The notes beneath the pieces are model-generated. The model had not been told where the DNA came from. It was given only the letters and a program-made list of their open reading frames with translations, and did no database searches. Position numbers and translations under genes: made by a program. From Oscillospiraceae bacterium (GTDB taxonomy: Bacteria > Bacillota > Clostridia > Oscillospirales > Acutalibacteraceae): DNA of 64,000 bases. The DNA lies in assembly GCA_015066465.1 (NCBI GenBank), contig SVOI01000004.1, positions 39,416 to 103,415 on the forward strand. The letters are read 5' to 3'. Each line of letters starts with the position of its first letter. Positions within the stretch are counted from its first letter, which is position 1. Of the stretch, positions 29,864 to 36,665 are shown one piece after another.

Positions 29864-30388
29864 ATGTATTATAACCAAGAGCTTGTTGAGTATATAAAAG
29901 CAGCTTATACTGCTATCTATCAAATTAACGTACAAAGTGTCATTGATGAAATTCAAAAACTAAGCCCATATTCTGAGAAAATAACACCATATATTCGTAA
30001 TGTTGAAGAACTTCAAAAATATTTAGAATTAAACCTTAAAGAGGGATTTATAACACGACCAACTCTATTAATAGATATAGACATTAACTATCGTGTTAAT
30101 GGAGGTCTTACCAATTTGGAAAAAATGTTAAAAGGCTCTCCACCATATGATTACAGAACAGGACAAGTTATTGAATTACATCATATAGGCCAACATTATG
30201 ATTCACCATTTGCTGAATTACCACAGCTTATACATGGTGGAACAGGTATGTTTGGTATATTTCATAACTTGCAAATAGAAAGTTGGAGAGTAAACAAAGA
30301 TTGTGTTATTAAAACTCAAAACGAGACTTCTCAATATTGGATAAAACGAGGTGAACAACTGTATGAAATATCAGCCAAACGAGATTAA
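29864..30388 (+). CDS. LHH-type HNH nuclease
   Basis: The C-terminal ~100 residues contain the LHH signature of the HNH/ENDO VII superfamily: PPYDYRTGQVIELHHIGQHYDSPFAELPQLIH. This domain is known mostly as the toxin tip of polymorphic toxins. Here there is no export leader, only ~75 helical residues in front. No immunity gene was recognised, unless the downstream protein serves. The gene overlaps the transposase reading frame by 26 bp, so the two are expressed together and the nuclease may take part in transposition. Confidence 0.75.
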   Translation: MYYNQELVEYIKAAYTAIYQINVQSVIDEIQKLSPYSEKITPYIRNVEELQKYLELNLKEGFITRPTLLIDIDINYRVNGGLTNLEKMLKGSPPYDYRTGQVIELHHIGQHYDSPFAELPQLIHGGTGMFGIFHNLQIESWRVNKDCVIKTQNETSQYWIKRGEQLYEISAKRD

Positions 30389-32324
30389 TTCCAGTAACCT
30401 TGCTGATGTTGTCACCGATATTTTCAAACAACTAAACTATGAAGATGCTAAAAAATGCAAGGAAAACATAGTTAGTTATTTTGATTGTTTAGAAATCGGA
30501 GCTCAATCCTTTGACGATTTGTATAATAATACTCTTTCAAATGAAAGTTTTCAAGAGGTTTATTGTCCTAATGATGATGAGCACTTAATTCAAAAGAATG
30601 GGAAAAGCACCGATGGAAAACAACGTTATCGCTGTAAAACCTGTGGAAAAACCTTTTTTGCTATTCAAAATTCCTTGGTTTCTAATGTTAATCAGGATGT
30701 TTCTGTTTGGATTAAATTTATAAGAGGAATGATTACTCAAAACACCATGGAAGAACTTAGTGATATATGTGGGATTAGCAAATCAACTGCGTGTAATTGG
30801 CGATTAAGAGTTTTTCAAGCTCTTGAATTACTTTCTAATGATGTAAAGTTATCCGGAACAATAGTAGCTGATGATACACGATTAAATTACAATTTCAACG
30901 GAAATCACGGTGATAGTTTTATATATCAGAGAAACCCAAAAAAGAGAGGAAATTCAAATACAATACATAATTTTCAAAAAAATCAAATTTGTGTTATGTG
31001 TGCAATTGATGAATACGGTAATTCATTCTCAAGGACTGCTGGATTTGGAACCCCAACTAGTGCTCGTGTTGTAAACGCATTTAAAGATAAAATTGAAATC
31101 AACGACAACAACATACTTGTAACAGATGGAGCCAATTATTATAAAAAGACATATGAAACATATAATTTTGCAGAACTTAAGCTCAAAAAAACACTAATTA
31201 AAGGAAACAAACGTGTTCCTGACACATCTGATAAATACCATATCCAAAGAATAAACGCTTATCATAGCAAATTAAAACGCTTTATGCGTAAATATAACGG
31301 CGTTTCTTCACGATATTTGCCAGGGTATTTATTGCTTTTTGATTACTTACAAAACACGGCTAATATGGATAACACCAGACGATGTCAAAATATATTAAGT
31401 GCTATGATTATAGCCCCTAAGAAAACAAATAAAGAATTAGAAAATCTTTATGTTTTACCTGTTTCAAATATTCCAGAATTGGAACCTTGGGAAATAAAGA
31501 TATCTATGGAAGAGCAAAAGATTTATAGAGATTGGCAAAATCATATTCCAATAAAAGAAATAACACGAAAGTATAAAATCAACAGAAGAAAAATCTACTC
31601 AATTGCTGAAAAAGTAAAAAAGTACAATGTACATAATAAAATAATATCCAAAACCTCAGAAGAATTAAATAAAAAACCTTTAAAACCAATATCTGAACGT
31701 GATTGGGATGTATTTTTAAGGTGTTATCGCGATGGATATAAACAAGCTGATGTTGCTAAAGAGTTAAATTTATCTCCTGCAAGAATTGCTGTAATAATCA
31801 AAGAAATTAAAAATAGACCTGAAGCTATTGGCATAGAAAAATATAAACGCCCACAAAAGCTGCGAATTGAACGCACTGACACTAAAGAAAGAAACGAGAA
31901 GATTTACAAGGATTATTTATTTTTGAAAACTGCTTATAAAACCGATAAAGAAGTATATATACTTTTGTCACAAAAGTACAATTTATCTATAAGTCGGTGC
32001 AACAAAGCAATTTTTAAGTTGCGTAAAGAAAACAACAAACTCTTTAACGCTCGATGCTGGAAATTCGAAAAGCTAACATTATCAGAATATGAGTACTACG
32101 AATTTTTACAATCTCGCAACATTGCTCTCGTGGATGAAATCATTTTTTATAGAACCACTTATCCCAAAATGCGTAAGCAAGATATTTATAAAATAGTTGC
32201 TCCTAAATACAATGTTTCGGTTGACCACGCAGCCAAAATATTTACCCATCAAAAGAAGTATTTGAATATACATGATGATTTTGTTAAAAAGAAACTCAGG
32301 CTGCAGGAGCGAGTTCTGGTATAG
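30363..32324 (+). CDS. IS1595-family transposase with long C-terminal extension
   Basis: 653 residues from ATG 30363 (GAGGTG upstream). A zinc-ribbon-like region (CPNDDEH...CKTCGKTF, residues ~55-90) and an HTH (SDICGISKSTACNWR) precede an IS1595-type DDE domain: VADDTRLNYN, ILVTDGANYY, and INAYHSKLKRFMRKYNGVSSRYL. The extra ~270 C-terminal residues contain several HTH-like segments (IPIKEITRKYKINRRKI, YKQADVAKELNLSPARI) not usual in the family. They may bind the long terminal repeats or a target. It is the best candidate for the enzyme that moved the 14.3-kb element. Confidence 0.78.
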   Translation: MKYQPNEINSSNLADVVTDIFKQLNYEDAKKCKENIVSYFDCLEIGAQSFDDLYNNTLSNESFQEVYCPNDDEHLIQKNGKSTDGKQRYRCKTCGKTFFAIQNSLVSNVNQDVSVWIKFIRGMITQNTMEELSDICGISKSTACNWRLRVFQALELLSNDVKLSGTIVADDTRLNYNFNGNHGDSFIYQRNPKKRGNSNTIHNFQKNQICVMCAIDEYGNSFSRTAGFGTPTSARVVNAFKDKIEINDNNILVTDGANYYKKTYETYNFAELKLKKTLIKGNKRVPDTSDKYHIQRINAYHSKLKRFMRKYNGVSSRYLPGYLLLFDYLQNTANMDNTRRCQNILSAMIIAPKKTNKELENLYVLPVSNIPELEPWEIKISMEEQKIYRDWQNHIPIKEITRKYKINRRKIYSIAEKVKKYNVHNKIISKTSEELNKKPLKPISERDWDVFLRCYRDGYKQADVAKELNLSPARIAVIIKEIKNRPEAIGIEKYKRPQKLRIERTDTKERNEKIYKDYLFLKTAYKTDKEVYILLSQKYNLSISRCNKAIFKLRKENNKLFNARCWKFEKLTLSEYEYYEFLQSRNIALVDEIIFYRTTYPKMRKQDIYKIVAPKYNVSVDHAAKIFTHQKKYLNIHDDFVKKKLRLQERVLV

Positions 32325-33354
32325 GTGCAAATTCAGTTAAAGCACTACCGGAAATATACGAACCAACTTTAGTTAATTCTTCGTTTAAAATAGTTTCTTT
32401 ATCGTAGTATTTGTTATTTTCAAGCCATAAAAACAATGCAAGGTAATTATGCAAATACTTTGTAGAAACACCATTGTATTTCTCTAAAAACTTTCTGAAA
32501 CGATGATGTAAAGCATTAACATTGTTAATGTGATATACACCCTTTACAGTTGGCTTGTGGTTATTTGTAGGCAATACAATATGCTCAACATTCGTGGTTC
32601 TGAAATATTGATTGTAAGCCCAACAACCATCTGTTAAAATAACACTTTCTTCAGAAACCTTGTCTCCGAAAAGTTGCTCCAACAAAGGTTTATTAATAGC
32701 ACCGCGGCAAGGAATTATACCAGAAAATGATTTATCTCTTTGAACAACACAAAGAACGCAAGCCTTCGAATTGCTACTTGTACAAACGTTATCGGTTCCT
32801 CTTTTAAATGGTTTTCGTGGCATTGAAAACTTCTTACTGTTCTTATGATTACCTTTATAGCTAATTCTCATAAATAACTCATCCATTTCAACTAAGCCTG
32901 TATAACTTGTTGAGAAAGAATGCTCAGTTAAAGCGTTAAGAATTTTATGTCTCCAAGTAAATGCTGTTTGTATAGCAATGCCACAGGCTTCTGCGGTCTT
33001 TGCAATAGAAAGACCTTGAAGCATACACTTTATATATTCCTGCCAGGTATCAGCGTCTTTACGGGTACGAGATACGACAGATGAACTTAATGTACCAAAA
33101 GTTTTGCCGCAATCTCTGCACAAATAACGAATATGTCTGTGAGAATCTTTACCATTTTTAACTACATGAACAGAACCACATTTATTGCAGACTGGCAAAT
33201 CTTCTTTTACAAGACTGTACACAGAGTTATCATCATCTTTTATATTACTTGTTAACTTAGAATAAAGTTCGCCAACAATGGAATCTAATTCATTTTGGGG
33301 AAGCTTTTTAAGTAATTTTAAGATATCGTTTATCTGGGTATTTGTTTTCTCCAT
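32296..33354 (-). CDS. IS1595-family transposase
   Basis: 352 residues of normal family length from ATG 33354 (AAAGGAGAGATACTA). It has a classic zinc ribbon (CNKCGSVHV...CRDCGKTF), HTH (AEACGIAIQTAFTWR) and DDE catalytic pattern: VEMDELFM, ILTDGCWAYNQ, and NALHHRFRKFLEKYNGVSTKYL. The last 29 bp overlap the convergent larger transposase gene. I could not see separate terminal repeats around it, so it may be part of the larger element rather than an independent IS. Confidence 0.85.
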   Translation of the reverse strand: MEKTNTQINDILKLLKKLPQNELDSIVGELYSKLTSNIKDDDNSVYSLVKEDLPVCNKCGSVHVVKNGKDSHRHIRYLCRDCGKTFGTLSSSVVSRTRKDADTWQEYIKCMLQGLSIAKTAEACGIAIQTAFTWRHKILNALTEHSFSTSYTGLVEMDELFMRISYKGNHKNSKKFSMPRKPFKRGTDNVCTSSNSKACVLCVVQRDKSFSGIIPCRGAINKPLLEQLFGDKVSEESVILTDGCWAYNQYFRTTNVEHIVLPTNNHKPTVKGVYHINNVNALHHRFRKFLEKYNGVSTKYLHNYLALFLWLENNKYYDKETILNEELTKVGSYISGSALTEFAPIPELAPAA

Positions 33355-33433
33355 TAGTATCTCTCCTTTATCTATATTATATCGCAAACGACACAATATG
33401 TCAAGAAAAATCGTATTTTCTAAGGAAAAAAGC

Positions 33434-33465: not shown

Positions 33466-34026
33466 TTAACCTATTTTTGATTGTTTGCGAATCTCTGTTT
33501 CGCGCTGTACTCTTTTTTTCTTAATTCTTTCGCATTCTGCAGCAAAGCTCTTTATATTCGATTTCTTTTGAGAATTCATTAAACAAGCCATAAGATAATC
33601 AGAACGCTTAATACCAGAACTTTTAATCATATTGTTAATCATTTCACCTTCATCTGCATAAACAGTGAACCTGATAGTTGTTTTGTTGTAAGGAGAAGGG
33701 GTTCTGGTAATAGGTTGATAGTTTCTGTTTCTCTTTGTTTCAATTTCAATTACTGGTTCTGTTGGAGCATCATCTTCAACATCAGGATTGCTATTACTAT
33801 TAGTTTTATCAATTACATAGAAATCTTCCTCTTTTATATCTTCGCCGTTATTAAGAAGAATATCAACCGTTTCAGCTTTTACAACATAAGTAATGTTGTC
33901 GTTATCAACTGGATGTAAATACGCTTTATCACGTCTTATTTCAGCAGATTTAAGGTCTAATACAAATCCTTTTCCAGCTATATTAAATATAGCTTTAATA
34001 GTTTTCACAAAATTTTTCATATCCAT
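33466..34026 (-). CDS. unknown protein, possible MobC/RHH-like tail
   Basis: 186 residues. Residues ~115-186 (TTIRFTVYADEGEMINNMIKSSGIKRSDYLMACLMNS) have the strand-helix-helix layout of ribbon-helix-helix or MobC-type DNA-binding proteins. An acidic low-complexity linker (~80-100) separates an unrecognised N-terminal domain. It lies between the transposase and the small RNA gene, with its own terminator. DNA binding is likely; a mobilisation role is a guess. Confidence 0.5.
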   Translation of the reverse strand: MDMKNFVKTIKAIFNIAGKGFVLDLKSAEIRRDKAYLHPVDNDNITYVVKAETVDILLNNGEDIKEEDFYVIDKTNSNSNPDVEDDAPTEPVIEIETKRNRNYQPITRTPSPYNKTTIRFTVYADEGEMINNMIKSSGIKRSDYLMACLMNSQKKSNIKSFAAECERIKKKRVQRETEIRKQSKIG

Positions 34027-34192: not shown

Positions 34193-34315
34193 AACTGTTT
34201 CAAATTTTTTGTCAATACTTGGGATTACGAATTCAGTAAATCGATAACAGCAGTATAAAATCAATATTAAAACTTAATTCCAAATAATTAACACAATAAA
34301 ATAATAAAAAATGTA

Positions 34316-34344
34316 TTGACTTTTTGAAAAAATCTGCATATAAT
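34316..34344 (+). promoter_or_regulatory. strong sigma-A promoter of a small RNA
   Basis: TTGACT, 17-bp spacer, TATAAT (34339-34344), with a second overlapping TATAAT at 34344-34349. Confidence 0.85.
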
Positions 34345-34350
34345 ATAATC

Positions 34351-34455
34351 ACAGACAAAAATTTGAACACTAAGTTTCGAATACAAATTTTTATTTTACA
34401 GACAAGCATTGATAAAGAGCAGAGTGATTTTAATCTTCTGCTCTTTATTTTTTTA
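34351..34455 (+). ncRNA. unannotated ~105-nt small RNA
   Basis: A consensus promoter is followed by ~60 nt with a CAAAAATTTG...CAAATTTTTATTTT stem-loop, then a terminator hairpin (AAAGAGCAGA 34414-34423 with TCTGCTCTTT 34437-34446) and ATTTTTTTATT. There is no start codon with a ribosome site and no long reading frame. It is convergent with the DUF3825 gene and touches its stop codon. It could be an antisense or antitoxin-type RNA or an independent regulator of the transposon. The rest of 34027-34315 is AT-rich and shows only the terminator above. Confidence 0.7.
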
Positions 34456-35232
34456 TTCCATTAACCAATTAGATTCTGGTTTCATTAGTAATCTTGCTTT
34501 TTCGTATGCTATTTCTTTTGTAAAAATAGTATTTGCTCTATACTGTTCGGTATCAGTTTTTTCAACTGCCAACGCCATCGTCTCATAATTGCCATTGTTA
34601 TCGGGTATTTTTATAGGAACTAAATACATAATTTCATCTCTATAGAACTGAGGAACCACTAGTCGAAGATTTCTACAAATTCGTAATTTAGCATCTTCAA
34701 TAGCACCAAATAATAAAGATTTAACAACAATTTTATCAAAACTGATAACACTGCTTATACGCTCCCAGTTATCGTCTAAAATATGGTCAGTATTAACTAT
34801 AATATTATAATTTGGATTAAAATATAATTCGCGATAATCATCAGTATATGTTGCTAATTTAGGAACATCATAAAAAACATCTAAAAAGTCTCTATGACAT
34901 TTATCTTTGAATCCTTTTAGTATCCAAGGTTGAGCTTCTTCTAAGTCGTTTTTCTTAAATAAACCAACAATATCATTTCCGTTATTTGTTAATAATCCTG
35001 TATTAAAACAAGAGAAATTTCCATCGTTGGAAACTAATATTTTATCTTGCTTGTAGCATTGAGAAAAAGTTCCTATAATATATTTTTTCAATATGTTATT
35101 TGGAGTTTTTTCATCGAAAGTCCATTTTTCTTCCTCTGCCAGATTAGATAAATATAGTAACATTTTACTGAAACCTAATTCAGTACCGCAAAATGCATAA
35201 TTAAAAATATAACTCATATCTTTTTCTTCCAT
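34453..35232 (-). CDS. DUF3825-family protein
   Basis: 259 residues from ATG 35232, after ACAGGAGTTACTTT; a longer frame would add a hydrophobic stretch without a ribosome site. The conserved DUF3825 pattern is clear: FNTGLLTNNGNDIVGLF, PWILKGF, LATYTDDYRELYFNPNYNIIVNTDHILDDNWERI and VPQFYRDEIMYLVPIKI. The fold is probably a nucleic-acid or nucleotide binding domain of unknown role; family members occur near helicases and in phage-like regions. Its 3' end faces the small RNA gene. Confidence 0.75.
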   Translation of the reverse strand: MEEKDMSYIFNYAFCGTELGFSKMLLYLSNLAEEEKWTFDEKTPNNILKKYIIGTFSQCYKQDKILVSNDGNFSCFNTGLLTNNGNDIVGLFKKNDLEEAQPWILKGFKDKCHRDFLDVFYDVPKLATYTDDYRELYFNPNYNIIVNTDHILDDNWERISSVISFDKIVVKSLLFGAIEDAKLRICRNLRLVVPQFYRDEIMYLVPIKIPDNNGNYETMALAVEKTDTEQYRANTIFTKEIAYEKARLLMKPESNWLME

Positions 35233-35324
35233 AAAGTAACTCCTGTGCACATTTTTTCGTATTATATCATAAAATAATGGATTTATCAACAAAAAGCGAC
35301 AAAAAACGAATATTATAAAAAACA

Positions 35325-35396: not shown

Positions 35397-36665
35397 TTAT
35401 TCCTCAAAATATGTAAACTTTTTATGCTTAAAAGATTTGTAAGTATGCTTTTTATAACCATCTGGTAAAAGTTCATAGTATACAATATCTGCACTACTCT
35501 TAAACTTATTAATTTTCGGTGTTTCAAGAATAATTTTATCGCACCATTTATCAAAGTTGTCTAAGAACCTTTTATCGTGTTGAACGTCTTTGATATTCTC
35601 TCTAATTGCCTTGCGCACAACATTTGAAACATCTCTGTAATATTCAATAACATTGTATAAAGCATAATAAACATCATCATTGCAATTTTTATTTTTAGCA
35701 TATGTTTCAAGTCTGGTTTGTAGATTTTTAATTGTTCGTGTGGACTTTTCACAACAAGGATAGACATTTCGCTTTTTGCTATTTCTTTTCTTCACAATGT
35801 CTATACATTCTTCCGAACAAGATTTAGCATTTTGATTTTGAGGAATAAAAAATTTATTACAACCATCGCATTTCTTTATTATCGCTCCGTTTTTATACAG
35901 TTGAACTATCGCTGTAGCAAAAACCTCTGCTAACGAATGCACAGAAAAATTTTTACAATTATCTTTGTAAATGGAAGATAGTTTTTGATATTCTAAATAC
36001 TCTTTCATTGAATATATATTTGCAGCATCAGGCACCATGTACTCTTTTGTAGAAAAAATAATATATGGAATTATTTTTTCGAGTAAATAATAGTGTTCCT
36101 CATTTTCAATGTGTGATTTAAGCCACTTTTTCAATTGGGAATATTCATATTTGAATGCGTTATGTTCTTCCCAAAAACGTTTCAAAAATTCTTCAGGATT
36201 GATTTTATAACAATACAAAATCGGATTACAAAGAGTCAGAATACGAGCATCGTTCATTGCTTCATCTTTATCCTGTAAATATTTATATTCAAAATAATTA
36301 ATTACGTCTGATTCGTTTATGTCTTTATATTCAGTAATATCTTGTAAATTTTTATAAATAGTAGACAAAAGATTAAAGGTTTCATAAAGAGATGATAAAC
36401 CTTGCGAACTTTCAATTTTTATAAATAAATTTAAAAGTTTTTTTGTATCACCACTTAAATTTGAATTGTTAATAGTTTCATAGGGGGTATGGCGAGAATG
36501 GGAACTATAGAATTTATTCCAGGATATGTTGGAGTTATATAGTTCAAGGATGATTTTCAATATATTAACCTTGATTTTTTTTACTTCACAACTATCTTCA
36601 TACTTGGTTATAGAAATTTCAAATTGTAAATAAGTTTTTCTTTCATCAACAATTCTAACTAACAT
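35397..36665 (-). CDS. DUF6076-like protein with treble-clef zinc finger
   Basis: 422 residues. Near residues 280-310 a zinc finger CDGCNKFFIPQNQNAKSCSEEC is followed by basic residues (KKRNSKKR), resembling CGNR/DUF6076-type proteins. The N-terminal ~250 residues are helical and unrecognised. It is probably a nucleic-acid binding protein. It lies alone on the minus strand of the transposon, between DUF3825 and the divergent clpP unit. The family name is given from memory of the motif, so moderate certainty. Confidence 0.5.
   Translation of the reverse strand: MLVRIVDERKTYLQFEISITKYEDSCEVKKIKVNILKIILELYNSNISWNKFYSSHSRHTPYETINNSNLSGDTKKLLNLFIKIESSQGLSSLYETFNLLSTIYKNLQDITEYKDINESDVINYFEYKYLQDKDEAMNDARILTLCNPILYCYKINPEEFLKRFWEEHNAFKYEYSQLKKWLKSHIENEEHYYLLEKIIPYIIFSTKEYMVPDAANIYSMKEYLEYQKLSSIYKDNCKNFSVHSLAEVFATAIVQLYKNGAIIKKCDGCNKFFIPQNQNAKSCSEECIDIVKKRNSKKRNVYPCCEKSTRTIKNLQTRLETYAKNKNCNDDVYYALYNVIEYYRDVSNVVRKAIRENIKDVQHDKRFLDNFDKWCDKIILETPKINKFKSSADIVYYELLPDGYKKHTYKSFKHKKFTYFEE

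Follow-up and report, generated by a model that had tools for sequence, protein, structure and literature searches.

A DUF3825 gene and its adjacent small RNA gene as a candidate RNA-neutralised toxin module in an Oscillospiraceae bacterium

An experimentally shown precedent for a pairing of one protein with one RNA is AbiF-RCd22 of a C. difficile prophage, at which an Abi_2 protein is accompanied by an RNA antitoxin that has a promoter, a terminator and repeated motifs and is proposed to bind the protein (PMC12373285). In type III systems (ToxIN, CptIN, TenpIN), the RNA repeats precede the toxin, a single promoter is present and the RNA forms pseudoknots (PMC5086642). Here we describe a DUF3825 gene and a small noncoding RNA gene lying next to it in a window, by which we mean the whole 64,000-nucleotide stretch of DNA that was analysed. 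Similar to AbiF/RCd22, this module is composed of one gene and an adjacent noncoding RNA of ~100 nt with a SigA promoter, an intrinsic terminator and repeated motifs, and both occur in prophages. However, AbiF is a HEPN RNase whose RNA lies upstream in the same transcript and carries the abiF motif RF03085, whereas DUF3825 has no Abi_2/HEPN match and its RNA is a separate downstream unit without RF03085 or any other Rfam family at threshold. With type III systems the module has in common a presumed RNase and a noncoding RNA, repetitive at part of the loci, beside an intrinsic terminator, yet the RNA of DUF3825 is found after the gene, on either strand and with its own promoter, and its repeats are shorter and not universal. 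The upstream repeat RNA, single promoter and intervening terminator of a type III locus were not found in the window, where DUF3825 has a promoter of its own, nor did the Pfam, PADLOC and NCBIfam searches or the fold leads, which point to RelE/BECR, give homology to ToxN, CptN or TenpN. The module belongs to neither the type III nor the AbiF-RNA systems, from which it is set apart by its protein family, the order of its genes and the arrangement of its promoters.

Antisense pairs of type I whose 3′ ends converge, such as txpA/RatA and bsrG/SR4, have small membrane peptides as toxins. The likeness to them is confined to the window's clade, where a convergent small RNA meets the 3′ end of the gene; the orientation of the RNA beside DUF3825 is not conserved, and in two other groups it lies on the same strand rather than antisense to the DUF3825 mRNA. 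Known RelE-family toxins have about 90-110 aa and are paired with protein antitoxins. The best, although weak, fold resemblance of two distant DUF3825 models is to the RelE/YoeB/HigB type II toxins and CDI tRNases; unlike the RelE family, DUF3825 is ~250 aa long, has no sequence match and has an RNA partner.

Anatomy and conservation of the small RNA gene

The features of the locus are given below, where L037 is the nearest relative of the window locus and other L numbers denote further DUF3825 loci.

34316..34344 (+): sigma-70/A-type promoter of the small RNA, TTGACT-N17-TATAAT, 11/12 match; 91% identity in L037, present across the rest of the clade
34351..34453 (+): small RNA gene, ~105 nt, ORF-free, by folding, ORF scan and identity to L037
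34351..34358 (+): ACAGACAA, first copy in the RNA; second copy at 34398-34405 (offset 47), with p 0.14 for the window and 0.01 for L037
34365..34373 (+): GAACACTAA, repeat motif, consensus about GARWACWAA; related copies in L040 and L038
34379..34387 (+): GAATACAAA, repeat motif related to GAACACTAA and 14 nt after it, by motif scan
34411..34453 (+): intrinsic terminator of the small RNA, hairpin ~34411-34447 followed by TTTTTTT to 34453; relatives have hairpins at the matching place
34453..35232 (-): DUF3825 (PF12873) gene, 259 aa, by Pfam match; predicted RelE/BECR-like fold in part
35261..35289 (-): promoter of DUF3825, TTGATA-N17-TATAAT with TG before the -10, 11/12 match; inside the block common to L037

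Judging from sequence anatomy and conservation, it is nearly certain that the small RNA gene is real, and it is presumably transcribed. Its hexamers, TTGACT at 34316-34321 and TATAAT at 34339-34344, are separated by a 17-nt spacer, and promoters of at least 11/12 with this spacer are found at 8 sites in the whole 64-kb window on both strands (128 kb of strand), one of them being DUF3825's own (35289-35261). The preliminary description of the locus had placed this promoter before a gene-free span of ~105 nt, and its coordinates proved exact; the 5′ end of the RNA was assumed to lie ~7 nt past the -10. No start-to-stop ORF was found within the RNA span and a 1-nt indel separates window and L037 inside the RNA body, so a peptide product, which was considered as well, was rejected. 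The terminator hairpin is stable, with a predicted energy of -19.1 kcal/mol (34409-34450), and has a small bulge and an internal loop in its stem, so that calling it "perfect" in the preliminary description was slightly generous. A simple terminator scan of the window did not pick up the hairpin at 34411-34453. The span 34350-34455 (106 nt) outfolds 200/200 shuffles (z -3.7), an effect for which the terminator mostly accounts. The U-tract of the RNA ends at the position where the stop codon of the oppositely oriented DUF3825 gene has its first base, so that the two transcripts would meet tail to tail. In Rfam at gathering threshold, the window and 15 homologous loci matched tRNAs only, with the abiF motif RF03085 not among the matches, and a permissive scan of 34280-34480 gave matches at chance level only.

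The DUF3825 protein of L037 is 85% identical to that of the window, and a single DNA block (35293-34298) is common to the two loci. One end of it lies at the DUF3825 promoter, the other a short way upstream of the RNA gene's -35. Within this block the RNA part, 34316-34453, is 89.9% identical (promoter 91%, body 88%, terminator 91%) as compared to 82.5% for the DUF3825 gene overall, 64.5% for its third codon positions and 55% for its fourfold-degenerate sites (33/60); the RNA is thus better conserved than weakly constrained positions. Identity drops to 65% in the 66 nt that precede the -35 and to 41% beyond. The common block holds DUF3825 and the RNA only; the RNA moves together with DUF3825 rather than with the transposases nearby. 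Nor is it a genus-wide RNA, since a DNA search for it in 60 relatives gave only promoter-like fragments. The module is present as a single copy in the genome. Whether such a promoter and terminator are conserved around DUF3825 had been proposed as a check, and both were found conserved in L037, in the clade and in other groups; this, together with the recurrence at DUF3825 loci described below, supports a real small RNA gene that is functionally tied to DUF3825.

The DUF3825 protein and its genomic surroundings

PF12873 is the sole Pfam match of the protein (E 3.4e-57, 194 bits against a cut-off of 27); PADLOC, NCBIfam and PDB sequence searches gave no match, and in PHROGs it falls in an unnamed family. 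The predicted structures of two distant DUF3825 proteins have mean pLDDT of 93.7 and 94.5. The best fold matches of the window protein are the CDI toxins 6cp9 (prob 0.97, E 0.05) and 6cp8, which we take to be of the BECR/RelE-like kind, plus HigB, while the protein from a clade with same-strand RNA matches mostly RelE/YoeB/HigB toxins (9g12, prob 0.97, E 0.04; also 3g5o, 1wmi, 2khe, 7v5y and 5ycl), matches that are individually below significance (best E 0.04-0.05) and consistent between the two models. A viral fold search gave nothing at E <= 0.001. From these models, DUF3825 is probably an RNase with a RelE/BECR-like domain, in which H150, R158, Y231 and R247, all invariant, and T235, nearly so, may make up an active site. 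Longer DUF3825 relatives show a sub-threshold match to the RNA-binding domain OST-HTH; three of them (L018, L020 and L184) are proteins of 500-700 aa at which this OST-HTH/LOTUS match is N-terminal, and they have no obvious downstream RNA. Among open-licence PubMed Central papers we found none naming DUF3825, and neither these papers nor Rfam at threshold nor the PADLOC models yielded a description of the gene-plus-RNA module, which ordinary annotation overlooked because half of it is a short RNA matching no Rfam family.

Two IS1595-family transposase genes, at 30351-32324 (+) and 32296-33354 (-), lie near the RNA and DUF3825 and overlap tail to tail. The first product (657 aa) is unusual for an IS1595-family member in carrying additional helix-turn-helix-like segments at its C terminus, and the start of its gene is overlapped by a gene for an LHH-type HNH/endonuclease VII nuclease (29864-30388), while the second (352 aa) is preceded by a promoter of 12/12 consensus, TTGACA-N17-TATAAT, at 33376-33404 (-). 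A protein encoded at 33466-34026 has a weak NikA-like (mobilisation) match just under the Pfam cut-off. Directly upstream of DUF3825 and on the same strand, 35397-36665 encodes a protein of 422 aa that has a zinc motif of the CxxC type and gave no Pfam, PADLOC or NCBIfam match. Despite the closeness of the transposases, no clean terminal inverted repeats bracketing the region were found, and the placement of the RNA "inside the transposon" by the preliminary description is therefore not established.

DUF3825 homologues occur in phages, prophages, plasmids and chromosomes of several phyla. In the 3.1-kb ColE1-type Enterobacter plasmid pK666_3k (L033), DUF3825 is among only four annotated genes, the others being two replication-related genes and one helix-turn-helix gene; an E. 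coli search with this locus returned the ColE1 backbone only. Divergent DUF3825 proteins (~25% identity) are common on Campylobacter coli/jejuni plasmids (H14-H27; 35/44 plasmid records). For 31 loci, 99 neighbours were tallied, without a matched control; integrases are among them, as are several matches to defence proteins.

Recurrence of the pairing and sequence character of the RNAs

About 135 DUF3825 loci were gathered from genomes and viral contigs. In the window's clade, 11/14 tree rows have an RNA, about 80-145 nt long, that is convergent with DUF3825, its promoter being recognisable in other members by sequence comparison. In a second large clade, from Bacillota and Actinomycetota, a strict promoter scan detected the RNA on the same strand in 17/24 rows, with the promoter mostly <=80 nt after the DUF3825 stop; twelve proteins of this clade are 66-80% identical to one member. 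The Bacteroidetes promoter consensus is TTGC-N17-21-TAnnTTTG. It follows the DUF3825 stop in 7/7 loci from Bacteroidota, at a distance of 6-7 nt (23 nt in L101), and is the sole forward-strand match at each of them. For counting, we used representatives of <80% identity, and other ORFs of the same loci served as controls. A promoter, a noncoding span and a terminator on the same strand were found at 13/86 DUF3825 genes versus 3/634 control ORFs (p 1.8e-10) and in convergent orientation at 10/86 versus 3/634 (p 7.7e-8), counts in which the loci share ancestry and are not fully independent, with the tree spreading the positives over several clades. For the same-strand promoter alone, the figures are 19/87 and 21/712. 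By these criteria 63/99 labelled tree rows have no such RNA, including those with Bacteroidota-type promoters, invisible to that scan; the DUF3825 proteins concerned may work without RNA, or the RNA may have been missed, as some may have other promoter types.

L038 has a second RNA, upstream and divergent; a 24-nt motif is found both in it and in the downstream RNA, as would suit an RNA acting in trans. A divergent upstream RNA candidate was also seen in Listeria phage A006. An upstream small RNA as a general feature of DUF3825 was considered and rejected, convincing divergent units being found only in L032 and L038. Longer candidate RNAs, with a length of ~190-210 nt and located after the stop, were noted in a clade composed of L182, L187 and L035 (a Geobacillus plasmid and relatives), that of L182 being A-rich.

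Most of the RNAs are 80-200 nt long, contain little C and G except in hairpins, lack a conserved ORF and close with an intrinsic terminator. Many same-strand RNAs start with a small hairpin; outside the terminator and some 5′ hairpins little structure is common to them, and the sequences are hardly alignable between clades. Clear tandem repeats are present in L188 (19 nt x 3.6), in L105 and L059 (17 nt) and in L040 (33 nt x 2). Moreover, L040 has five related copies of the GARWACWAA-type motif, spaced by 16/16/17/16 nt, and L038 has three copies in its downstream RNA and one in the upstream RNA. Recurrence of 4-mers at 15-19-nt spacing is strong in the pooled same-strand RNAs (z 12.9; 7.1 minus the strongest) and is also seen in pooled Bacteroidota (z 5.0). 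The same pooled test did not detect this periodicity in RNAs of the window's clade, where the signal lies at 33 nt (z 15.1; 7.8 minus L040, for nine sequences only), and tandem repeats in the window RNA itself are weak (p 0.14). No k-mer motif is universal to all groups; GTACAAA is enriched in the window's clade (4/10).

Possible roles of the RNA and the proposed mechanism

For the RNA, the preliminary description offered three roles: control of DUF3825, an antitoxin RNA or element copy control. By analogy, we consider it an even proposition that the module is a probable RNase toxin, DUF3825, neutralised by the small RNA in a type III- or AbiF-RCd22-like manner, and the antitoxin is the best of the three roles. 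A toxin held by a binding RNA is the best reading because of the repeats, the weak RNase-toxin fold, the mobile neighbourhood, the change of orientation and the RNA's own promoter. That the RNA is no inhibitor, and instead serves a DUF3825 ribonucleoprotein effector as its functional cofactor, its guide or a sensor of the trigger, seems unlikely. The association and the motifs are equally compatible with it, rapid divergence of the RNA sequences from clade to clade is what a sensor or guide might show, and the sub-threshold OST-HTH of the long DUF3825 forms is in its favour. Nonetheless, the RNA body, of low complexity, with repeats and no spacer-like part, does not resemble a guide, many homologues have no detectable RNA, and the weak fold leads are to small RNase toxins.

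Antisense (type I-like) control of DUF3825 by the convergent RNA, or transcriptional interference, would agree with the arrangement in the window, where the hairpin makes a poor terminator for transcription coming from the gene and DUF3825 mRNA could enter the antisense of the RNA. As a general mechanism it does not hold: the RNA of the same-strand loci and of those from Bacteroidota is not antisense to the gene, and L038 has its extra divergent copy upstream. In L038, L040, L043, L044 and L063 the hairpin has A/T runs on both sides, so that either transcript could stop at it, and a single bidirectional terminator appears to serve the two transcripts in several loci of the window's clade. As the orientation switches between clades, the RNA would act as a separate molecule rather than as antisense of the gene, and we regard antisense control as improbable. 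A comparably low probability is given to a role of the RNA as substrate of DUF3825, or in merely autoregulating DUF3825 synthesis, with no toxin involved. The same anatomy would allow this and the predicted RNase-like fold is compatible, but a dedicated strong promoter beside a gene that has its own suggests RNA in excess, and neighbourhoods that are mobile and rich in defence genes point to addiction or immunity. It is very improbable that the RNA controls the copy number of the surrounding transposon or regulates it, an idea prompted by the nearby IS1595-family transposases, or that the promoter is due to chance, given that the DNA common to L037 (35293-34298) lacks transposases, the module is single-copy and both locus statistics and conservation speak against chance.

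For the RNA-neutralised toxin, the following course of events is proposed. An RNA of ~100 nt would be made from its own strong housekeeping promoter, offering short single-stranded motifs, repeated every 15-19 nt in many relatives, ahead of a stable terminator hairpin. Because of this promoter the RNA would be kept in excess in growing cells, where it would bind DUF3825 directly and hold the protein inactive. If a phage or loss of the element halted RNA synthesis, the short-lived RNA would decay, and DUF3825 thus freed would cut RNA and growth would stop.

Perhaps, and here our confidence falls somewhat below even, these loci represent an undescribed immune or addiction module in several phyla, in which an RNase of RelE/BECR fold is neutralised by a small RNA that is for the most part unstructured, carries motifs at intervals of 15-19 nt and is encoded next to the RNase gene in one or the other orientation. 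If this is true, a fold known up to now from pairs with protein antitoxins would have an RNA as its antitoxin. The finding of a dedicated RNA partner provides the DUF3825 family with a testable job, and would add a further kind of RNA-controlled toxin beside ToxIN and AbiF.
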